A stretch of 50,477 nt of DNA from Verrucomicrobiota bacterium. Its GTDB lineage: Bacteria; Verrucomicrobiota; Verrucomicrobiia; Verrucomicrobiales; DEV007. Made by a program: the position numbers and the translations under genes. Each line of letters opens with the position of its first letter. Position 1 is the stretch's first letter. The notes beneath the pieces were generated by a model. It saw nothing but the letters and a program-made list of their open reading frames with translations, had not been told where the DNA came from and ran no database searches. The stretch spans positions 1-50,477 of the forward strand of contig JAGWVU010000035.1 in the NCBI GenBank assembly GCA_018970725.1, read 5' to 3'. This document shows, piece by piece, positions 3,169-50,477 of this stretch.

Positions 3169-4941
3169 TCACTTCTTCATGAGTTGCGCTGCGGTCTGCT
3201 TCACGGGGACTTGGAGGCGGCAGCGGTCGGAGATGGGTTTGCCCGCAGCCACATCCTCCTCGGTGAAGACGGCCATCAGGATCTGGCCGGCTCCGCGGCC
3301 CTGATCGTAAACCACGTAGATTCTCCCGTCGTCCGCCTGGAACCCGTCTGGATAGCTGCAGCCGCGTTCCTCCAAGAGCAGGCCGCCCCGCCAGGACACA
3401 CCATCGTCGTCGGACAGGTAGGCGGTCAGATGCGTGCGGTTGGGGATTGGGTTGTCCCCTTGCAGCGCGCCGTGCTTGACCATCAGGATGCGGCCGGACG
3501 CCAGGCGCAGCGTCATGATTCGCGCCACGGCGTGAGGGATCGCCGTTGGCACCGGTTTGGACCAGTTGAAACCGCGGTCATACGATGTGGTTTCCACGCG
3601 TCCGTCCCGCGTGCGGATCAGGCAGACGAGGGTGCCGTCGGCTTTCTCGAACAATGCAGGTTCGTCCCAACAGGGGTTTTTTGGCGAGCGAACGCCGCCG
3701 CGGCGTTGCCAGGTTTTTCCTTGATCGGTTGAGACCAGGAAGTTGGTCATTCGCCAGGGATCGAGCTCCGCGAAGGCCCGGTTTTGGGGGCGGTCATTGG
3801 GTATGTTGTAATCCTCAGGCTTCATCGGGGCAGACAATCCAATGTATTCGCGGTGATAAAGGCTGATGGGCAGTAGCCACGCGCCGTCCTGGAGCACGAC
3901 CGGCTTGGCGAGCACGATGCCGTCATGCAGGCGTTCCGGGATGGACCATTCGAGGTTCTCCGCATCCGGATGGTCGCAATGCGCGGCCCAGACGCCGCTT
4001 CGACCATCAGTGTAACTCAGGGAATAGCTGAAAAACCACCAGAGCCGCCCGTTCGGATCGACCCAGATATTGCCTTCGCGAAAATTGCGGGTGAAGCCGT
4101 TGGGCGTGCGGGGCTCCCGGAGCACGTGGCGCGTTGTCCAGGACTTGCCGTCGTCATCGCTTGCGGCCATGAGCTGCCAGGATTTTGGCCCGTCTTCTCC
4201 GCCGCCAAAGAGCACGCAAAGCCGGCCGCCGCGCGTGCGGGTGATACCGCCGCACCCATGAATGAAGTTGCTGTATTCCGGGCCCAGTTCCGGCTCGAAG
4301 AACGGGCGGATGCGCGGGGGAATCAGCGCAAGCGGCTGGTCTTCGGCGATCCGCTGTTCGATCGCATCCTGTTCCGCAAGTTCACGAGTGCCTCCGATCC
4401 TGAACATGAATCCCTGAGCCCCGCTGACGACTTTGACGGCCAGCAGGTTGCGCCCCTTTTTGAGCGGCAGGGTGAGGCGGTGTTTGATGTGTTCCGTGTA
4501 GGTGTTGTGGGTGTCGAGCGCGTCGCAGACCACCTGGCCGTTGCACCAAATCTTCATCCGCGAGTCAGCCCCCGCCCCGGCTTCCACACTTCGGTCGGCG
4601 TCCGAATCGATGGAGGTCAGCAGGTAGGCTGTCCTGCCGGACCAGACACCGCCATGGCGTGTCTGGAGGTCCAAATAGAGGAAGCGGCGGCAGCGCTCCA
4701 GCCGTGTCGCCTTGACGCTCAAGGTGAGGCCGCCCACCTCGAGCGTGGCTGGAATGTCTTTGATGGCGGTGAAATCCGGTTCCGGCGTGTTGCGGTCGGC
4801 CATGCCGTAGAGAAACCATTCCGCAGGAAACTCGCAGTTGGCGGCGTGCGTGGGTTTCGGAGTATCGGAAGCTCGTGCGACTGGCAAGGCCAGCAGCAGG
4901 GCGGCAAGCGGCGTGAGCAGGAGGGCGGTGAGGAGGGTCAT
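3169..4941 (-). CDS. Secreted BNR/sialidase family protein with N-terminal beta-sandwich
   Basis: The product is 590 residues from the ATG at 4941, which opens directly on a strong Leu/Ala-rich signal peptide (cleavage near VARA-SDTP, about residue 24). Residues 30-190 look like a jelly-roll sugar-binding module (KIWCNGQVV, then LPLKKGRNLLAVKV). The rest is a six-bladed-propeller-type sialidase domain with Asp boxes SDDDGKSW (261-268), STDQGKTW and SDDDGVSW, plus repeated R-x-G blade motifs. A likely role is cleavage or recognition of sialylated or related glycans outside the cell; the exact glycosidic substrate is unknown. In-frame ATGs at 4995 and 4998 would add a basic N-terminal extension. 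It is the first gene of the cassette and divergent from an AraC regulator 60 bp away. Confidence 0.83.
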   Translation of the reverse strand: MTLLTALLLTPLAALLLALPVARASDTPKPTHAANCEFPAEWFLYGMADRNTPEPDFTAIKDIPATLEVGGLTLSVKATRLERCRRFLYLDLQTRHGGVWSGRTAYLLTSIDSDADRSVEAGAGADSRMKIWCNGQVVCDALDTHNTYTEHIKHRLTLPLKKGRNLLAVKVVSGAQGFMFRIGGTRELAEQDAIEQRIAEDQPLALIPPRIRPFFEPELGPEYSNFIHGCGGITRTRGGRLCVLFGGGEDGPKSWQLMAASDDDGKSWTTRHVLREPRTPNGFTRNFREGNIWVDPNGRLWWFFSYSLSYTDGRSGVWAAHCDHPDAENLEWSIPERLHDGIVLAKPVVLQDGAWLLPISLYHREYIGLSAPMKPEDYNIPNDRPQNRAFAELDPWRMTNFLVSTDQGKTWQRRGGVRSPKNPCWDEPALFEKADGTLVCLIRTRDGRVETTSYDRGFNWSKPVPTAIPHAVARIMTLRLASGRILMVKHGALQGDNPIPNRTHLTAYLSDDDGVSWRGGLLLEERGCSYPDGFQADDGRIYVVYDQGRGAGQILMAVFTEEDVAAGKPISDRCRLQVPVKQTAAQLMKK

Positions 4942-5001
4942 CCCAAAGAAATACCACTCGCGCCATCGGATTGTTACGGCAGAGTCTTGCGACATCATCA
5001 C

Positions 5002-5931
5002 ATGAACGATTTCGCAATGTCCTGTTCCTCTGACGACGTCCCGACCATCTCGGCGCCGAACTTTCTGAGTCTTCACGACCTTGCCTTGTCGGGCGATGAT
5101 CTGTCCTGGGGAGCGCTGGACTATGTGTCGACCAGCATGCGCTTTGCGGCGGAGCCGCTGAACTGGCACCGGCATCCCGGCCAGGAGCTGCTGTTCATGC
5201 TCAAGGGGGCCAGCGGCTATCAGTTTGATGGGGGCCAAAAAATGGAGCTAACCGGCGGCCACTTCATGCTGATCCCCGGGTGCATGGCCCACCGTGGGGC
5301 CCGCCTGGTCCGCGAACCCTCGACGCTTTGTGCCGTGATCCTCAGTGCCGAGGCGACCGCATGGAGCGGCGGCATCTTCACGCCGGATGAAGCGGCTTGG
5401 ATTCGCTCCAGCCTTTGCACGGAAACACCGCAAATCCGGCCCATGACCGCGGCGATGCGCCACGCCACGCGCTGGCTGCACGAGAACATGGTCAACCTTG
5501 ATCGTGCCAAGAGCAGGGATCGGGAACTCCTCGTGGGCATCCGCCTTCAGACGGGCTTCCTCGTTCTTCAGGCAGCGCTCCAGATCAGTGAGCAAGCCGA
5601 GACCTCGCCCACGTTGTTGATCGAGCGCGCCAAGGCCTATCTCACCTCCCACCATGCCGAACCCTTCACCATGAGCCACCTGACGGAGCACACGCGTTGC
5701 AGCCGGACGTGGCTCTTTCAGGCCTTCAAGCAGGAGACGGGGATGACGCCCTTGGACTGGCTCCAGCGTTTTCGCGTCGGCAAAGCGGTGGAATTGCTCC
5801 AGACCACGGACCGCACCCTCGAGGACATCGCCACCGCCGTCGGACTGACCTCCGGCCCCTATCTGTGCCACACCGTCAAGCGCTACACGGGCCGCACGCC
5901 CGGCGGGCACCGGAGGACAACGGTTCCGTGA
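5002..5931 (+). CDS. AraC-family transcriptional regulator
   Basis: The product has 309 residues. The N-terminal half has a cupin-like sensor (NWHRHPGQELLFMLKG, with the metal/ligand-type H-x-H and following Gly turns). The C-terminal ~100 residues carry two helix-turn-helix motifs of the AraC/XylS type: MSHLTEHTRCSRTWLFQAFK and LEDIATAVGLTSG-PYLCHTVKRYTG-TPGGHR. The start is the ATG at 5002 or that at 5017; neither has a clear ribosome binding site. The frame is open far upstream, but that part is antisense to the BNR gene. Its divergent position, about 60 bp from that gene, makes it the likely sugar-responsive activator of the BNR/oxidoreductase run. Confidence 0.88.
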   Translation: MNDFAMSCSSDDVPTISAPNFLSLHDLALSGDDLSWGALDYVSTSMRFAAEPLNWHRHPGQELLFMLKGASGYQFDGGQKMELTGGHFMLIPGCMAHRGARLVREPSTLCAVILSAEATAWSGGIFTPDEAAWIRSSLCTETPQIRPMTAAMRHATRWLHENMVNLDRAKSRDRELLVGIRLQTGFLVLQAALQISEQAETSPTLLIERAKAYLTSHHAEPFTMSHLTEHTRCSRTWLFQAFKQETGMTPLDWLQRFRVGKAVELLQTTDRTLEDIATAVGLTSGPYLCHTVKRYTGRTPGGHRRTTVP

Positions 5932-42567: not shown

Positions 42568-43263
42568 TCAAAAACCTCCCGGTCTCGAGGAGTTTCCCGG
42601 AAACCGGAGGGCCTTCGGGATCGCCGGCTTTTTGACCGGGGCCACGGGGGCGGAGGGGACCCCGCCCGGGCGAATCCCCGCGATGACCGCTCCGGCCTTC
42701 CGCTGAAGGGTTTCGCGGGCTGTCGCCGCTCCTTCGAGTTGGATGTTGATCTCGAACTCGGCTTTGAGGGCGTCGAGCTTGGTCCGTGTGCCGCTGCAAG
42801 CCGCCCCGAGCGTCTGCACCTCTTTTTCCAAGGCTGCGATTCGTCCCTCGACCTGCTTCACTTTCTCCCCGGCGGTGCCGCGTGCGTCCGGAGAGATCGA
42901 GGTGAGTTTGGCGTTGAGGTCCGCGATCCGTTTGCGCAAGGCCTGCATTTCCTTGGAAAGATCCCCGCCGGTCGCGGAGGCCTTGAGGTCGGATTGGCGG
43001 CGCAGGTTTTCCAGGCCGGTGAAGAGGTTTTCCCATTCCGTGGGAAGATCCGGTTGTTCCTTGGCGATCCAGTCGTTCAGGAGCTTTTCCAAGGCCTCCC
43101 ATTGTCCGGCCACCCTCCGTTCCAGCGCCTCGCACTGCTCGACGATGCTCATTCCACCGGCGGCGACGTCACGGGCATCCTGCGCTGGAAGCGATCCGTG
43201 TGTCCCATGGATGAGCCAGAAGAGCAGCAGAACCAGTGTGCGACGCCTCATACAATGGAACAT
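42568..43263 (-). CDS. Secreted helical protein, SUMF1-less paralogue of the next two genes
   Basis: The 231-residue product (ATG 43263, GGAGG just upstream; ATG 43251 also possible) has a signal peptide RRRTLVLLLFWLIHGTHGSL and a predicted all-helical region. It closely matches the N-terminal ~170 residues of the proteins at 43350 and 44861: WEALEKLLNDWIAKEQPDLP, GLENLRRQSDLKASATGGDL, GTRTKLDALKAEFEINIQLE. It ends after a Pro-rich tail where the SUMF1 domain begins in its paralogues; no remnant of that domain follows. It may be a truncated duplicate or a dedicated helical partner. The family is unknown to me. Confidence 0.7.
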   Translation of the reverse strand: MFHCMRRRTLVLLLFWLIHGTHGSLPAQDARDVAAGGMSIVEQCEALERRVAGQWEALEKLLNDWIAKEQPDLPTEWENLFTGLENLRRQSDLKASATGGDLSKEMQALRKRIADLNAKLTSISPDARGTAGEKVKQVEGRIAALEKEVQTLGAACSGTRTKLDALKAEFEINIQLEGAATARETLQRKAGAVIAGIRPGGVPSAPVAPVKKPAIPKALRFPGNSSRPGGF

Positions 43264-43289
43264 GATCCTCCGCCCGGGCCGGGGACGGT

Positions 43290-43303
43290 GCAACCGGGAA
43301 ATC
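43290..43303 (-). promoter_or_regulatory. Shared 14-bp upstream box, copy 1
   Basis: The plus strand reads GCAACCGGGAAATC; the minus strand reads GATTTCCCGGTTGC. It lies 26 nt before the ATG at 43263. The identical box occurs upstream of both paralogues (44828 and 46386). Confidence 0.6.
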
Positions 43304-43349
43304 GGGGAGCCCGGGAATGATGACGGGAGGAGTCCTTTGGGACGTTGCC

Positions 43350-44804
43350 CTACGGCCCGCTGCCCGTTTCCAAGACGATCCGGAAGCCGTTGGCACCTCC
43401 GCGGGAATCGGGCCTGCCCCGGGCGCGACACCCTGAGCGCAAACTGATTTCCGAAAAGCTGAACCAAGAACCCCCGCGGAGGACCCGGTATTGATGGGGA
43501 TCACGCTCATCGGCGCCCGAATCCCGCAAGACCTTCTGGACCTCGGGATCGTTCATCGAGAGTTGGAACCAATCCTCACACCACTCCCAAACATTGCCGC
43601 CCAAGTCATGGAAGCCGAATGGATTCGGCGCGTAGGAACCGACTGGCGCGGTTCGTTCCGCGCCGTCATCATAATCTCCGATCACTTCGTAGCGCCCCGC
43701 CTTGAAGGCCCCGGTATTGGCCTCGATCCCCGCGTAATTCCCGGCCCTGGGCGGCGGCGGAAACGCGCCTTTCCATGGATACTCCTGCCCGCCGACCGCC
43801 GCCGACCACTCCGCATCCGTGGGCAACCGGTAGCGGCGCCCCTCCTGCCGGGACAACCACTCGCAGAACGCCCGCGCATCCTCCCAGCTGACACAGACGA
43901 CCGGATGATCTCCCGTCTGTGCGGCGCGTTTCGGGAATCCGGGATTCATCCAACTCCCGCCCACCTGTTTCCACCCGCCCTTTTCCAGCGTGTAAGCACC
44001 TTCCGTCGCCTCGTAGCCGGTATCGCGGACAAAGGCATCGAAATCCCTGACCCGCGTCTCGGTCCGGCTCATCAAGACGCCCGGCTTCCCCGGCAGCGGA
44101 ATGAATTCCAGCCCCAGGGAATTGAGGAACGGCTTTTCCTTGGTCACGACGCTCTCCCGTCCGGCGGGAACGGGCGCGGGGACGCCCGCCATTGCGCCGA
44201 CCGCATCGCCACGTTTCCGGCGGATCTCAACGATTAAATCACCGACCTTTTGGCGAAGGGTTTCCCGCGCTTTGGCCGCCCCTTCCAACTGGATGTTGAC
44301 CTCGAACGTGTCTTTGAGCGCGTCCAGTTTTGTCCGGGTGCTCCCGCAGACCGTCGCGAGCGATTGCACGGCCTTCTCCAACGCTCCGATCCGTCCCTCA
44401 ACCTGCCTGACTTTCGCCGCGGCGTCCCGGCGGGTCTCCTCCGGCACGGACGCCAGCTTGGCGTTCAGGTCGGCGATTCGTCGGCGGAGGTCCGTCATTT
44501 CCTTGGCAAGGTCACCACCCGTCGCGGAGTTTTTCAGGTCGGATTCACGCCGCAGGTTTTCGAGACCGGCGGACAAGCCCGCCCACTCCACCGGCAAGTC
44601 GGGTTGTTCCTTGCTGATCCAGTCGGACAGCAGTTTCTCCAAAACCTCCCACTGCGCGGTCACCCTCCGCTCCATCACCTCGCACTGCCCGATGATGCTC
44701 ATGCCTCCGGCCTGCACGTCACGGGCCTCCTGAGCCGGGAGCCATCCTTGCGTCCCTTGCAACAGCAGCAGCGGAAGCAACATCCAGCGCCTCATCGAGC
44801 GCAT
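43350..44804 (-). CDS. Secreted helical + SUMF1 (FGE-like) protein
   Basis: The 484-residue product starts at ATG 44804 (AAGG upstream; ATG 44795 also possible). It has a signal peptide (RRWMLLPLLLLQGTQGWLPA), a helical domain (about 30-200: WEVLEKLLSDWISKEQPDLP, LRRRIADLNAKLASVP, FEVNIQLEGAAKARE) and a C-terminal SUMF1/FGE-sulfatase domain (about 230-480: FIPLPGKPGVLMSRTETRV, CVSWEDARAFCEWLSRQEGR, RLPTDAEWSAA, LGGNVWEWCEDW, VLRGGSWFSFSEISLRSGCR, NGFRIVLE). The two cysteines needed by formylglycine-generating enzymes are replaced by Ser after GGSW, so formylglycine formation is unlikely. It is probably a periplasmic binding or structural protein. Confidence 0.82.
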   Translation of the reverse strand: MRSMRRWMLLPLLLLQGTQGWLPAQEARDVQAGGMSIIGQCEVMERRVTAQWEVLEKLLSDWISKEQPDLPVEWAGLSAGLENLRRESDLKNSATGGDLAKEMTDLRRRIADLNAKLASVPEETRRDAAAKVRQVEGRIGALEKAVQSLATVCGSTRTKLDALKDTFEVNIQLEGAAKARETLRQKVGDLIVEIRRKRGDAVGAMAGVPAPVPAGRESVVTKEKPFLNSLGLEFIPLPGKPGVLMSRTETRVRDFDAFVRDTGYEATEGAYTLEKGGWKQVGGSWMNPGFPKRAAQTGDHPVVCVSWEDARAFCEWLSRQEGRRYRLPTDAEWSAAVGGQEYPWKGAFPPPPRAGNYAGIEANTGAFKAGRYEVIGDYDDGAERTAPVGSYAPNPFGFHDLGGNVWEWCEDWFQLSMNDPEVQKVLRDSGADERDPHQYRVLRGGSWFSFSEISLRSGCRARGRPDSRGGANGFRIVLETGSGP

Positions 44805-44827
44805 CCTCACCTTGCACCGGGATCGGC

Positions 44828-44841
44828 GCAACCGGGAAATC
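44828..44841 (-). promoter_or_regulatory. Shared 14-bp upstream box, copy 2
   Basis: GCAACCGGGAAATC on the plus strand, identical to copies 1 and 3, lying 23 nt before the ATG at 44804. Copies 1 and 2 are also alike for several bases on either side. Confidence 0.6.
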
Positions 44842-44860
44842 GGGCGCCCCTGCCCGATTC

Positions 44861-46348
44861 CTAACTGCCTTCCCTCACATCCAACACCAGGCGAAATCCG
44901 CGGGTGTCACAACGATAGCCAGGCGCGCCGAAGTCCCTGCAGGAGGAGCGCAACGACGTTTCCGCCTCGTCAAACCACGAGCCTCCGCGCAACACGCGGA
45001 AGGATTCTCCCCCGCCATCGCCGAATCCTGCCTGCCGGTATTCCTTCTGGATGTCGGGATCGTTCATCGTCAGGAGAAACCAATCCTCGCACCATTCCCA
45101 GACGTTGCCTCCCAGATCATAAAACCCGAGTTCATTGGGTTCCTGAGAGGCGACCGGAGCGGTGCGTGGGGCGGCGTCGCGGTAACCGTTGAGCACGCCA
45201 TAACGGTTGGCTGCGAAAACCCCGGTCAGGGCCTCCTCCCCGGCGTAATTGCCCGCACCGGCGGGCGGCGGAAACGTTTCGCCCCAAGGATATTTGGCGG
45301 GCCCGGCGGCGGCGGACCACTCCGCATCCGAGGGCAAACGATAGCGCAAGCCCTCGCCTTGATACAACCAGGTGCAGAAAGCCTTGGCGTCTTCCCAACT
45401 GACACAGACCGCAGGATGATCCGCGCCCTCGCCCTCTTCCCAGGCGAAGCGGGGGTTCCTCCACGTGCCTCCAGCCCGCTTCCATCCACCTTCTTCCAAG
45501 GTGCAGGCCCCTTCGGTGGCGTCGTAGGAAGTCGCCGCGACAAACCGTTCGAAGTCCCGGACCCGGGTCTCGGTCCGGCACATCAACAAGCCCGGATGCC
45601 CCGGCAGCGGGAGAAACTCCAGCCCCAGGGCGTTCACGAACGGTTCCTCGCGCGTCGCCCGGCGCGCCCGCTCCACCAGGATCGGCAATGGGACCGGAGC
45701 CCGCACCGCTCTGCCCATCGCCCAGGAACCGGACCGCTCCGGGGAGGTGGCGGTGCCCGGTCCGCCGCGGGCCTCACGAATTTCATCCAGCGCCGTGCCG
45801 GCCCGTTTGCGGAGACCTTCCCGGGCCTTGTTGGCTCCGGAGAGTTGGATGTTCACCTCGAACTCGACCTTCCACTTCTCCAGGTTGGCCAAAAGCCAGC
45901 CGCAGGTTTCTCCCAAGGCCTCGAGTTCCTTCCCCAGAACGTCAACCCGCGCCGCGACCTGCCGCAGTTTTTCCCCGGCGGGCTGGCGGGACTCGGCCGG
46001 CATGGAAGGAACCTTCGAAGTCAGGTCGGTGATCCGGGCGCGCAGAACCAGAAGATCCCTGCTGAAATCACTGCCGGTCAGTGAATGGCGGAGATCGCTC
46101 TCCTGCTGAAGATTGGCCAGATTGGTGAGTAACCCGCTCCATGAAGCCGGGAGGTCCGGCTCGTCCTCCGCGATCCAGCCGACGAGAAGCTGTTCCAGCG
46201 CGTCCCATTGGCCGGCGACCCTCTGCTCGAGCGCCTCGCACTGCTGGAGGATGGTGCGATCCCCGGCCTGGATGTCACGGGCGTCTTGCGCGCACAGAGC
46301 GCCGGGAATGGCTGGCAGGAGGATCAGGGCCGATATCCAGCGATTCAT
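44861..46348 (-). CDS. Secreted helical + SUMF1 (FGE-like) protein, first of three paralogues
   Basis: The 495-residue product starts at ATG 46348 with a signal peptide (WISALILLPAIPGALCAQ). Its helical domain is more divergent than in the other two (WDALEQLLVGWIAEDEPDLP, VEFEVNIQLSGANKAREGLR). The SUMF1 domain covers about 245-490: FLPLPGHPGLLMCRTETRV, CVSWEDAKAFCTWLYQGEGL, RLPSDAEWSAA, LGGNVWEWCEDW, VLRGGSWFDEAETSLRSSCR, GFRLVL. At the positions of the two catalytic FGE cysteines it has Asp and Ser. It lies divergent, 160 bp from the coiled-coil/DUF58 operon, and is probably the ancestral copy or first gene of the tandem set. Confidence 0.82.
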   Translation of the reverse strand: MNRWISALILLPAIPGALCAQDARDIQAGDRTILQQCEALEQRVAGQWDALEQLLVGWIAEDEPDLPASWSGLLTNLANLQQESDLRHSLTGSDFSRDLLVLRARITDLTSKVPSMPAESRQPAGEKLRQVAARVDVLGKELEALGETCGWLLANLEKWKVEFEVNIQLSGANKAREGLRKRAGTALDEIREARGGPGTATSPERSGSWAMGRAVRAPVPLPILVERARRATREEPFVNALGLEFLPLPGHPGLLMCRTETRVRDFERFVAATSYDATEGACTLEEGGWKRAGGTWRNPRFAWEEGEGADHPAVCVSWEDAKAFCTWLYQGEGLRYRLPSDAEWSAAAGPAKYPWGETFPPPAGAGNYAGEEALTGVFAANRYGVLNGYRDAAPRTAPVASQEPNELGFYDLGGNVWEWCEDWFLLTMNDPDIQKEYRQAGFGDGGGESFRVLRGGSWFDEAETSLRSSCRDFGAPGYRCDTRGFRLVLDVREGS

Positions 46349-46385
46349 AACCGGTGGGTTGACACTAGCCGTGAAGGGGGCGGAA

Positions 46386-46399
46386 GCAACCGGGAAATC
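46386..46399 (-). promoter_or_regulatory. Shared 14-bp upstream box, copy 3
   Basis: GCAACCGGGAAATC on the plus strand, identical to the other two copies. On the minus strand its final TTGC could be part of a -35 box: TTGCTT, 16 nt, TAGTGT, ending 13 nt before the ATG at 46348. Confidence 0.55.
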
Positions 46400-46473
46400 C
46401 GCGCGGGCGGCGGTCAGGCAAATGACAAACCAATGCGCGCTGCCACACCCTGCCGCGAAGTTCCAAGGCCGGA

Positions 46474-46501
46474 TTGACTTCCAGCGGCCGAAGGGTAGAA
46501 T
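46474..46501 (+). promoter_or_regulatory. Near-consensus promoter of the coiled-coil/DUF58 operon
   Basis: -35 TTGACT (46474-46479), 16-nt spacer, -10 TAGAAT (46496-46501). The ATG of the first gene begins 8 nt after the -10 box, so transcription should start at or within a base of the start codon: a leaderless message. Confidence 0.65.
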
Positions 46502-46508
46502 CGCGGGT

Positions 46509-47198
46509 ATGAAACCCGGAATCGCTTGTGTCGTAGGAATCGTCTTGGCAGGGCTCGGCGCGGTGCACGCGCAAACGGAGGCGGCGCCACCGGCCGGTGA
46601 TCCGAACGCAGGCGGCCAGCCCGCGGCCAATCCGTTACCGCAGGAGTTCGTTCCGTTGCAAGCGGAGGCGGAGAAACTCGCTCAATCCGTGGACAAGGCC
46701 CTCGCGGATGTGAAGCGGGCGATGACGACCCAGAACCGGCAGGAATTGATTCGGGCTCTGGACGCGGTCATTGCGAACATCCAAGGCTCGGTCGACAAGA
46801 CCGCGAAGGAACTGGAGCCGGAGGCGTTCAGGACGATGGAGCGGGCCCAGGAGAAGGCGAGGGAGCTGAAAGGCAAAGCGGGCCAGCCTTCTTTCGAGGA
46901 GTCGCAACGGCAGAGACTGCTGAAGATGGCGGAGCGCTACACCGCCAATGCGGCCGAGGGCGTGGAGATCATCAAGCGGTTGCAGGACACCCGGGGGGCC
47001 TTGGAGCAGGACTTGAAGACCTTCGAGAACGAAAAGGAGGTCATCATCGACGAGCTGGAGCTGCTCGGTTTTGAGGACACCCTCAAGTCCCTTCGCGAGG
47101 TGGTGGACAACATGGGCAATGTCAGCCTCAAAATCCGCGGCATGGTTTCCGGCCCGGCCGTCGGTCCCTCCGTGGTCACGCCGCCCGCGGGTTCCTGA
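46509..47198 (+). CDS. Secreted coiled-coil protein, unknown function
   Basis: The 229-residue product has a signal peptide (GIACVVGIVLAGLGAVHAQ), a Pro/Ala/Gly-rich stretch, then a nearly continuous charged helix (AEKLAQSVDKALADVKRAMT, TQNRQELIRALDAVIANIQG, KRLQDTRGALEQDLKTFENE, LKSLREVVDNMGNVSLKIRG). No family is recognised. The start is fixed by the promoter directly in front. It is the first gene of a run of four co-oriented genes that ends with a transglutaminase-like protein, and divergent from the helical SUMF1 paralogues. Confidence 0.7.
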   Translation: MKPGIACVVGIVLAGLGAVHAQTEAAPPAGDPNAGGQPAANPLPQEFVPLQAEAEKLAQSVDKALADVKRAMTTQNRQELIRALDAVIANIQGSVDKTAKELEPEAFRTMERAQEKARELKGKAGQPSFEESQRQRLLKMAERYTANAAEGVEIIKRLQDTRGALEQDLKTFENEKEVIIDELELLGFEDTLKSLREVVDNMGNVSLKIRGMVSGPAVGPSVVTPPAGS

Positions 47199-47223
47199 GC
47201 CGCGCCGTCCAACCTTTCCCCCC

Positions 47224-47607
47224 ATGGTCCGGACCCACGCCCTGCTCGCTTCTCTTCTCGCCCTGGCGGTTTCCGCTCAGGACCGCGCCCCGGTCCCGCC
47301 TGCGGCGCCCGTGATCGAGTCCGTCGAAACCGTTGCGAAGAAGGTGTTGGCCCAGCTTGACGCCCGGATCGCCGATGCCGGCAAGCGTTGGCGGGCTGAG
47401 TCCGACTCGGCGGGCAACCCCGCTCTCGGTGAGACGGAACGTGAGCGCCATCGGCAAAGCGCGGCCCGGCTCGAGACGCTATTGAAGGGATTTCTCGAGC
47501 AGCGGGCCAAACTGGTCTCCCAGTTGCGTCTGCTCGAGGAAGCCAAGAACGTGGCGCCGGTCCAGCCTCCGCCCTCTCCGGGGCCGGGCGCCCCCAAAAA
47601 GGAATAG
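47224..47607 (+). CDS. Small secreted coiled-coil protein, unknown function
   Basis: The 127-residue product has a signal peptide (THALLASLLALAVSAQ), a helical middle (SVETVAKKVLAQLDARIADA, SAARLETLLKGFLEQRAKLV, SQLRLLEEAKN) and a Pro-rich C-terminus (PVQPPPSPGPGAPKKE). No family is recognised. It lies 25 nt after the preceding coiled-coil gene and 16 nt before the DUF58-like gene, so it is part of the same transcript. Confidence 0.65.
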   Translation: MVRTHALLASLLALAVSAQDRAPVPPAAPVIESVETVAKKVLAQLDARIADAGKRWRAESDSAGNPALGETERERHRQSAARLETLLKGFLEQRAKLVSQLRLLEEAKNVAPVQPPPSPGPGAPKKE

Positions 47608-47623
47608 AGCGTCCGGGATCTTG

Positions 47624-48841
47624 ATGAGGGTTGGCCTCCGGCACATCCGCCTCCATTGGCCGACATCGTCCACGGGCTCCGTGGTCGCGCTCACCGCCAT
47701 GGCATTCGGGTTGGGAACCCGGGTCTGGTTGCGCGATGAAGTCGCCAACGCCATCGCCCTGTTGCTGGGGGTGATTCTGGCGGGGGAACTCTTGTTGCTG
47801 TTCCTCAGCCGCCTCTCGCTTCGGGGACCGGTTTTCCGCCGGATCCTGCCCGAGCCCGGGTGGATCGAAGCGGACCCGGGCGGCGCCGCGGAAACCGCGC
47901 CCTGGGCGCTCGAGCCCTCCCCTTGGTGGAATCGCCTCGGCCTTTGTTGGCTTGAACTGACCTGGTCGGCGGGCGGGCCCCTTCTTTTGGCGCCGCCCCG
48001 TCTGCGCCCCGATGGCCGGATTGAGGTGAATCTCGCGCGACGCGGCGAATACGCGATCCAACGAAGACTCACCCTGCGCGACTGCCTTGCGCTGGTGCGT
48101 GCCTCGATTCTGCTTCCGATGGAACTGCCGCTGATCGCTTTGCCCCGGAGGTCGCCGGGAGTGATGAACCTGCTCCGGACCCTGGCGCCGGCGGGAGATC
48201 GTTGGGTGCCTTCCGGGAGACCGGACGGCGATTGGTTCGCAATCAAACCCGCCGAACCGCAAACGCCACGGCGCCTGCTCCTCTGGAAACTCACGGAAAA
48301 GAGTGGCTCGCCCCAGCGGATGCGCCGGGCCCCGGAGACAGTCGGGTCGACCGAGTTTCGCACCGGGTTGTTTCTCTGCCTTTCTCCGGAGGACGAGCCG
48401 GCGGCCTCCGTGTTGCGATCCATCTTTGAATCCCACTGGGCGGATGAGGAATTGCTGGGCGTGGAGTGGTGCTATGCGGACAGTTGCGAGCCGGGCACCC
48501 TGACGTCCAAGCGCGGGTCCTCCCGCCGCGAGGCCCTGACCCGGCTCGCCCGGTCCGGGCATCCGGGAAGCGCTCCGTGGGATCCTGCGGAAGGGCTGCG
48601 GAGGTTTCTTGCCGGGACCGCGGGCTGGAGATTGAACCGGTTGTTGATCTTCCACGGCGGACCGACGGTTGCCGATTGGCAACGGGGATTCAGCCCTCCC
48701 CGGGGAATCGAAGTGCGATGGCTTCACGTCGAGTCCGGGGTATCCAATCAACTAAGCGAGACGGTCCGCCGCGGAGAAACGGTTTGGCTTCACTTGACCA
48801 TCGCGCGGCAGTTTCCGGCCCCGGGCGGCCCCCCTTCATGA
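47624..48841 (+). CDS. DUF58-like membrane protein
   Basis: The 405-residue product has two N-terminal membrane helices (TGSVVALTAMAFGLGTRVW, NAIALLLGVILAGELLLLFL) followed by a large soluble part. The segment DGDWFAIKPAEPQTPRRLLL-WKL resembles the DUF58 signature (G-x-E/D-F-x-x-L-R-x-Y-x-x-x-D-x-R-x-I-x-W-K), and the position directly before a transglutaminase-like gene matches the known MoxR-DUF58-TgpA operon type. The match is weak, and no MoxR ATPase is in the window. The stop overlaps the next start (ATGA). Confidence 0.6.
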   Translation: MRVGLRHIRLHWPTSSTGSVVALTAMAFGLGTRVWLRDEVANAIALLLGVILAGELLLLFLSRLSLRGPVFRRILPEPGWIEADPGGAAETAPWALEPSPWWNRLGLCWLELTWSAGGPLLLAPPRLRPDGRIEVNLARRGEYAIQRRLTLRDCLALVRASILLPMELPLIALPRRSPGVMNLLRTLAPAGDRWVPSGRPDGDWFAIKPAEPQTPRRLLLWKLTEKSGSPQRMRRAPETVGSTEFRTGLFLCLSPEDEPAASVLRSIFESHWADEELLGVEWCYADSCEPGTLTSKRGSSRREALTRLARSGHPGSAPWDPAEGLRRFLAGTAGWRLNRLLIFHGGPTVADWQRGFSPPRGIEVRWLHVESGVSNQLSETVRRGETVWLHLTIARQFPAPGGPPS

Positions 48842-50477
48842 GCGCGCTCTCCACCGCAGTGAGGAAATCGACCGCCATGTGGGCATGGGTGCCGTTGTGC
48901 CTCTGGTATGGAGGGTTCGCCGGGGGAACGGCCGGGGCCATCGGCTCGGCACTGGGTTGGCTTGGTGGTTCGGTTGGCGGCGTTCTCGTGGCGGGGCATC
49001 CGGCTTTTGCCCGACCGGTCCGCCGTTGGGTTCCGCTGGCCGGCATCCTCGCGACGGCGCCCCTGGCCTTTTTGGTTGCGTTTCCCGTCGCGCGGATCGT
49101 AGCGGGTTTCCTGTGCAGTCTCCGTCCTGAATCCACCGCGTGGTGGACTCTGTCGGGCCACGCTGTCGTCCAAGCTTCCGGCTTTGCCTTCTGCCTGGCG
49201 GCGTGGGCCCGCCATCGTCTCCTCCCGGGCCTGGTCCTCGAGGTCGCCCTTGGAGCGCTCATGGCTTTGGCTCCCTTGGCGGCGCATCGCCACGGCGGCT
49301 TGCCGTATCCCTACTGGCTCGCCGATGGCGCCGCCGCCCGGGGTTGGGACCTTCATTCCGGCTATTTCGCCGCGGGATTGGTCTTCGTCTTCTGCCTCGT
49401 CCCGCGCATGGCGTGGACCGGTTCCCCCCGAGGCGGCCGAAAAATGCTCGCCGCCACGGGCGCCCTGCTCCTCGTTTGGGTTCCGCTCTCCTTTGGACTC
49501 TTTCCGGCGATGCGATTGCCTCTGGGAGCCGCCGCGCCCCCGCCGCCGCCTCCACCCGAGTCCGCTCCAGAGGCGAACGAACAGGATCAGCCCCCCCCGC
49601 CCCAACCCCCGGAACCAACCTATGAGGCGTTGGTCCGCTTCCAATCACTGCCCCCCGAATCACCGCGCGAATGGAAGGGACATCTCTTCCGGCTCCAGGC
49701 GGAAGTCTCCGGAGCCAGCTCTGCCCCGGGGACATCCCTCGCTTCGGACGTCTTTGTGTTTTCGGGGCTCGACCCGGATGGGCCCCCGGTTCATCCCGAG
49801 GCCACCCGCATCGAGCCGTTCCGCCCTCCACCCGGTTGCCGGGCCGCCTTTCACACCGTTTCCATTCTTCCGGCCCGGGGCTTCGATCCGGAATTGCTCT
49901 TTCTCTATCGGGCGGACGAGACCGGCGCGATCCGGCGGATTGAGGCGGAGCCTTTGCCGGAGACCTGGCATTGGATCAGGGAATCGCTCGACGGGGAACC
50001 CGGTTTCGGCACCCGCAGTCCGGCGGAAAGGATCGGCACCACCGTGAAATGGTTGCGCCGGAACACGTTCGCGGATCCACCGGCGGCCCGGCAAGGCGGT
50101 TCCCCCCGGAATCTTGAGCAGCGGATCCAGGCCCGCAAGGTTCCGATCCACGGCTCGGTCGATGAAATCATCGGTCTCGCGGTTCGCCTCCTCCGCGCCG
50201 ACGGAATCCCGGCGAGGGTCGGGCGAGGATACCGGTATCCCTTCGCCCAAACAGGGGACGAATCCTCCGACTTCCTGCTCTACGACTGGATGAGAACCTC
50301 ATGGCTCGAGGTCGGGATGGGTTCCGCCGGTTGGACGCCCCTGGTTTTTCCGGTGGAGGGCGAGCCGGCTCCGCAGGCCAACCAAGTCGACTCCGAAACC
50401 CTGCAGCAGGTGCTCGAACTGTTGCGCCGGGAATCCTCCGTGCCCAATCCGCCGGCGCTGCGAACCTGGCTCCCCGC
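48838..50477 (+). CDS. TgpA-like membrane protein with inactive transglutaminase-like domain (3' end outside window)
   Basis: A frame of 546 codons runs from ATG 48838, overlapping the DUF58-like stop, off the right edge without a stop. Roughly the first 230 residues contain six or so membrane helices (for example WAWVPLCLWYGGFAGG, ILATAPLAFLVAFPVARIV, FAAGLVFVFCLVPRMAW). A Pro-rich linker (AAAPPPPPPPESAPE) follows, then a periplasmic domain. Near 441-505 it matches the transglutaminase core by the flanking motifs ADGIPARVGRGY, SWLEVG and GWTPL, but the expected Cys, His and Asp are Val 441, Thr 487 and Val 503 or Phe 504. It is probably a non-catalytic relative that binds peptides or envelope polymers. 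Confidence 0.75.
   Translation, partial: MSALSTAVRKSTAMWAWVPLCLWYGGFAGGTAGAIGSALGWLGGSVGGVLVAGHPAFARPVRRWVPLAGILATAPLAFLVAFPVARIVAGFLCSLRPESTAWWTLSGHAVVQASGFAFCLAAWARHRLLPGLVLEVALGALMALAPLAAHRHGGLPYPYWLADGAAARGWDLHSGYFAAGLVFVFCLVPRMAWTGSPRGGRKMLAATGALLLVWVPLSFGLFPAMRLPLGAAAPPPPPPPESAPEANEQDQPPPPQPPEPTYEALVRFQSLPPESPREWKGHLFRLQAEVSGASSAPGTSLASDVFVFSGLDPDGPPVHPEATRIEPFRPPPGCRAAFHTVSILPARGFDPELLFLYRADETGAIRRIEAEPLPETWHWIRESLDGEPGFGTRSPAERIGTTVKWLRRNTFADPPAARQGGSPRNLEQRIQARKVPIHGSVDEIIGLAVRLLRADGIPARVGRGYRYPFAQTGDESSDFLLYDWMRTSWLEVGMGSAGWTPLVFPVEGEPAPQANQVDSETLQQVLELLRRESSVPNPPALRTWLP

Follow-up and report, generated by a model that had tools for sequence, protein, structure and literature searches.

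We analysed a 50,477-nucleotide window from a Verrucomicrobiota bacterium (assembly GCA_018970725.1, contig JAGWVU010000035.1). The window spans the whole of contig C6; the assembly comprises 108 contigs totalling 4.9 Mb and is 96.5% complete. At the end of the window, three minus-strand genes (A, B and C) and four plus-strand genes (D, E, F and G) lie on either side of a divergent intergenic region (Table 1). An initial annotation had described this arrangement, with A, B and C as secreted paralogues, and the coordinates and the identities over the helical part of the paralogues (A/B 54%, B/C 68-69%, A/C 47%) confirm it. Its statement that all seven products are secreted or membrane proteins also agrees with our data: signal-peptide-like N-terminal segments were read from the sequences of A, B, C, D and E, and hydrophobic membrane segments are present in F and G. 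The F and G reading frames overlap by four bases (48838-48841). In a direct Pfam scan G matched PF01841 (E = 8.7e-6), and no match was obtained for F itself. We are confident that the seven genes belong to one conserved module, made up of a core D-E-F-G-H-I, of which H and I are encoded beyond the window, and flanking helical secreted proteins.

Table 1. Coordinates of genes and other features at the end of the window
Feature	Coordinates	Strand	Basis
Gene C, secreted helical-domain protein without SUMF1	42568..43251	-	Helical-part similarity to B; helical profile match
14-bp motif GATTTCCCGGTTGC upstream of C	43290..43303	-	
Gene B, secreted helical domain and apparently catalytically dead SUMF1	43350..44795	-	PF03781, E 4.7e-46; helical alignment
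14-bp motif GATTTCCCGGTTGC upstream of B	44828..44841	-	
Gene A, secreted helical domain and apparently catalytically dead SUMF1	44861..46348	-	PF03781, E 1.3e-43; matches FGE structures
Divergent intergenic region A/D, exactly 160 bp	46349..46508		
14-bp motif GATTTCCCGGTTGC upstream of A	46386..46399	-	
Gene D, secreted coiled-coil protein	46509..47198	+	Orthologs in equivalent position in G137, G113
Gene E, short secreted coiled-coil protein	47224..47607	+	Positional orthologs in G137, G113
Gene F, membrane protein, degenerate DUF58	47624..48841	+	hhalign match to DUF58 proteins from homologous operons
Gene G, multi-pass membrane protein with pseudo-transglutaminase domain	48838..50477	+	PF01841; runs off contig end

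The reverse complement of contig C38 (6503 bp) matches the final 242 bases of the window end to end at 97% identity, a level that suggests strain variation. It carries G onward in frame, followed by a MoxR AAA+ ATPase (gene H; PF07726, E = 1.7e-43, with Walker motifs visible in the alignment) and a secreted TPR protein (gene I). On its opposite strand, C38 carries a gene for a small protein and K, the fourth helical-SUMF1 gene. The fifth, L, lies at one end of contig C27, and the terminal 108 bp there match a gene at the distal end of C38. The initial annotation had reported no MoxR here and proposed a search beyond position 50477. Its statement is true within the window but not for the locus, as MoxR directly follows G on C38; since the window is the entire contig C6, the apparent absence is a contig-end effect. 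A secreted protein gene was also seen on C38 (L013, 1-789, minus strand; MKLSIPCLS..., with a DSDGDGLNDANDP repeat), part of which recurs over 108 bp at 98% identity at the C27 end (L014) beside L. The recurrence may reflect an assembly fork, a strain difference or gene duplication.

The core order D-E-F-G-H-I was found conserved in three genomes from two families of one order. A profile of the five helical domains gave two confident further copies, 12 kb apart and both in G137, a Verrucomicrobiaceae metagenome-assembled genome from a pond that belongs to another family. On a single contig (JAIXYN010000095.1) of G137, D (two copies), E, F, G, MoxR and I lie in the same order between these two helical genes, and no confident copies were detected elsewhere in that genome. 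A search with F found G113, of the same genus as G137, with D-E-F-G-MoxR-I on a single contig. Here the operon is preceded by a pair of helical genes, one of them with Sel1 repeats fused to it, and followed by a gene for a membrane protein that combines coil, SH3 and SUMF1 domains; the F/G, G/H and H/I junctions abut or overlap. The D ortholog occupies the equivalent position in both genomes (49% identity in G137, 24% in G113). E was matched at 29% identity (E = 0.005) in G137 and by position only in G113. Helical homology between the window genome and G137 is strong in profile comparison (hhalign 96.3%, E = 2e-9), and a helical profile built without G113 ranks both G113 satellites first and second of 2082 open reading frames (E = 0.0018 and 0.02). 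Two side observations were made in G137: D is tandemly duplicated (L026/L025, G137:C53 18706-20287), and restriction-helicase-like and TIR-like genes, recognised by eye, lie a few kb from the module (L026, G137:C53 24003-28144).

Other searches added no further genome. Single-sequence searches in the window's family gave no convincing module, the F and G proteins being too divergent; a first scan of genome contigs with the helical alignment and a plasmid search with F gave no match. A weak F match in G066 and a helical match in G071 received no support from their neighbours, and an F profile match in G084 was discarded, since it contains internal stops. F was found in 2 of the 68 genomes of one family, with no other convincing genome in the set searched, and its identity within one genus is 33% over the best stretch. 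The module is, among the genomes covered, rare and fast-diverging.

Several points weigh against our reading of the locus. The module is present in only 1 of 75 genomes of the window's own family. Helical homology to G113 alone is weak (hhalign 11%, E = 0.0027), and the membership of E is supported mainly by position. We infer the C6-C38 join from the 242-bp overlap at 97% identity, not from one contig; the other two genomes have the same continuation within one contig each, which supports it. The module SUMF1 domains are not monophyletic, and the AlphaFold models of F and A (predicted local distance difference test scores, pLDDT, of 38 and 49) were too poor for use. As far as sequence goes, the helical proteins are tied to the operon products by co-location only. 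Low identities and few genomes could be read as unrelated secreted genes beside an ordinary operon, a coincidence that the initial annotation would have accepted if the SUMF1 paralogues never adjoined the operon in relatives. However, helical proteins do adjoin the orthologous operon in G137, as do more weakly homologous ones in G113. Because the same order and helical neighbours were kept in three genomes of two families, we regard the module as real and coincidence as very improbable.

We compared the core with operons outside the phylum. The nearest MoxR relatives there are in Myxococcota, Gammaproteobacteria and Acidobacteriota, often immediately preceded by a transglutaminase gene (44 loci). 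Many of these loci have a DUF58 gene before the transglutaminase gene and a large downstream gene, which encodes TPR in the two cases scanned. Profile-profile comparison with the outside operon proteins gave 99.7% (E = 2e-26) for F, 99.9% (E = 3e-35) for G and 99.2% (E = 6e-20) for I by hhalign; the comparison of F with ordinary DUF58 proteins of the window genome was not significant. Since F is homologous to the outside DUF58 proteins, one of which passes the PF01882 cut-off, it is a degenerate DUF58 protein; the DUF58-like label of the initial annotation was therefore borne out in this way and not by direct Pfam matching. PF01841 was found in G of all three genomes, where MoxR lies beside DUF58 and transglutaminase genes (through the contig overlap in the window genome, on a single contig in G137 and G113).

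In the MoxR tree, the module and the outside F-G-H-I operons split from classical MoxR with 99/96 support. The MoxRs of the three modules group together (100/99), with G113 on a long branch, and under midpoint rooting, with long branches, the module is sister to the outside clade. The module order DUF58-transglutaminase-MoxR-secreted TPR is the same as in the outside operons, whereas other Verrucomicrobiota examined have the classical order MoxR-DUF58-transglutaminase (L219, L221, L224-L228, L231). A resemblance to the MoxR-DUF58-TgpA type, noted at the outset, was thus sustained by MoxR, the degenerate DUF58 protein and the transglutaminase fold, with a gene order differing from the classical one. 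This homology and tree evidence places F-G-H-I as a divergent branch within a DUF58-transglutaminase-MoxR-TPR operon type of several phyla. A broad F profile collected mainly ordinary DUF58 proteins; the 16 neighbourhoods examined were classical or partial, and D, E, helical and SUMF1 genes were absent from them.

The outside transglutaminases keep the Cys-His-Asp signature, for example GYCVHFAYA...GHAWPEIY...VDPTP in L062 (the signature is present in the 44 listed outside loci, a few of which matched the pattern only partly). The equivalent G positions read HGSVDEI / TSWLEV / PLVFP in the window genome, RGSAGHI / FSWVEI / PLVFT in G137 and CGMEQL / QHWAEV / PLPLH in G113, so that the Cys, His and Asp positions are replaced in all three modules. 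The FGE catalytic cysteine pair is likewise absent from A, B, the C38 and C27 copies and the G113 SUMF1 protein, and the SUMF1 domain of A lacks these cysteines yet matches FGE structures. Both folds appear catalytically dead, as first suggested.

Five helical-domain proteins are encoded in the window genome (A, B, C, K and L). Gene C ends after the helical domain, and A and B continue with a SUMF1 domain; across the genomes the satellite C-termini are nothing, SUMF1 or Sel1. SUMF1 matches number 26 in the window genome, a single origin of all module SUMF1 domains was not supported by the tree, and no SUMF1 domain was found in the G137 helical copies. Because the SUMF1 domains do not form one clade and their relatives are fused to other domains elsewhere, SUMF1 looks like an exchangeable part and the helical domain like the constant part of the satellites. 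Of the helical/SUMF1 partners proposed in the initial annotation, the helical neighbours recur but SUMF1 is not the constant component. In fold searches the helical part gave generic helical bundles only, and a weak resemblance to alpha-pore-forming toxins was not significant. Two other SUMF1 fusions were read from sequence in the window genome: a protein with a signal peptide, a caspase-like domain and a SUMF1 domain nesting with those of A/B in the tree (L179, G000:C90, 1556-3250, plus strand), and a TIR-like domain fused to SUMF1 (L183, G000:C88:9000-19000, 4552-5715, plus strand).

The motif GATTTCCCGGTTGC ends 32-38 bases before the start codons of A, B and C. Five exact copies are present in the 4.9-Mb genome, the remaining two being inside coding genes. 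A degenerate copy precedes L (2 of 1000 shuffles were as good) and a weaker one precedes K (56 of 1000); the motif was not found before D. The motif may act as a common regulatory site or be left over from duplication. A sigma-70-like element (TTGACT-16-TAGAAT, 46474-46501; consensus match only) stops 7 bases short of the D start codon. This putative promoter would give a nearly leaderless transcript.

The joint function of the module is what we infer from these features. MoxR proteins pair with vWA-type proteins and remodel complexes, according to two papers (PMC9976466, PMC3893208), and PorK is a repurposed FGE fold serving as a structural envelope hub (PMC12421860). We propose that MoxR hexamers on the cytoplasmic side of the inner membrane would engage F and G and use ATP for remodelling them. 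G would act without chemistry, its periplasmic transglutaminase-like fold providing a docking or substrate-binding surface, and the conformational change would be relayed to periplasmic I, D and E. These proteins could then serve to assemble the helical proteins in the envelope, release them or place them there, with SUMF1 as non-enzymatic docking domains, as in PorK. This mechanism, ATP-driven F/G remodelling with helical proteins as clients, is the reading we favour over its rivals, though tentative and somewhat improbable in full; module anatomy and mechanism taken together we put at slightly short of an even chance. It is doubtful that the genes form an undescribed trans-envelope system in which a MoxR complex works through a catalysis-less transglutaminase-fold scaffold and assembles or displays a dedicated set of secreted proteins that have an N-terminal helical address domain in common and C-terminal domains that can be exchanged.

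The products could instead form an envelope-stress or protein-quality machine, with the helical-SUMF1 genes as neighbours kept by shared regulation and not as clients. The abundance and mixed ancestry of SUMF1 domains fit this idea, as do the outside F-G-H-I operons, which at the loci examined manage without any helical or SUMF1 partner. But the operon has helical neighbours in each of the three genomes, no confident helical copy was found elsewhere in G137, and the motif upstream of A-C is missing before D; we consider this explanation unlikely.

A conflict (defence/antagonism) system, with the MoxR/DUF58/pseudo-transglutaminase core as a gate for the secreted helical proteins and their variable C-termini as sensors or effectors, would account for the sporadic distribution in two families, the fast divergence of F and the C-terminal variation. 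Related SUMF1 domains fused to caspase-like and TIR-like domains, the restriction-like and TIR-like genes near the G137 module, and the MoxR-vWA conflict systems on record (PMC7159879) point the same way. However, PADLOC gave coiled-coil similarity only and nothing convincing, no toxin or nuclease domain was recognised in the satellites, and F-G-H-I operons at large are widespread and carry an intact enzyme. The ternary systems resemble the module in having MoxR, a partner family and variable accessory proteins, but their VMAP, iSTAND, FtsH and beta-propeller partners were not seen in the module proteins scanned (PADLOC, Pfam), and all module partners look membrane-bound or secreted. The module MoxR scored 33.1 bits against a bpMoxR cut-off of 27, but AAA_3 was far higher at 148 bits. 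This reading is quite unlikely in our judgement.

Among known systems, the closest are the outside F-G-H-I operons (Pseudohongiella sp. O18, L062; Myxococcales, L048), with homologous F, G and I and, under midpoint rooting, a sister MoxR; unlike the module, they have kept the triad and have no D, E, SUMF1 or convincing helical neighbours in the loci examined. The Pseudomonas aeruginosa TgpA operon (PA2875-PA2874-PA2873) encodes a transglutaminase-type membrane protein like G, but with an intact, active triad, and TgpA was reported to be critical for viability (PMC3507681). Classical Verrucomicrobiota operons share the MoxR, DUF58 and transglutaminase neighbours but lack D, E, TPR and helical partners and fall on a separate MoxR branch. 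PorK/GldK of the type IX secretion ring is similar to the module SUMF1 proteins as a secreted envelope protein with a non-catalytic FGE/SUMF1 fold (PMC12421860), but a module protein reached only 73.8 bits against the 350-bit GldK cut-off and no further type IX component was detected among the module genes. The initial annotation knew of no system of such composition; our literature search, made mostly without subscription papers, likewise found none. The MoxR-DUF58-transglutaminase kind is already known; new are the gene order unlike the classical one, the lost triad and the added D/E and helical satellites.

The intact-triad DUF58-transglutaminase-MoxR-TPR operon across several phyla (L046-L123) had no description in the same literature, and it seems worth describing. 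MoxR-DUF58-transglutaminase operons are common and poorly understood. A branch that has kept the ATPase and membrane core, lost the active site and gained candidate clients separates a mechanical from a chemical role of the family, and the helical proteins are concrete candidate substrates to test for it.

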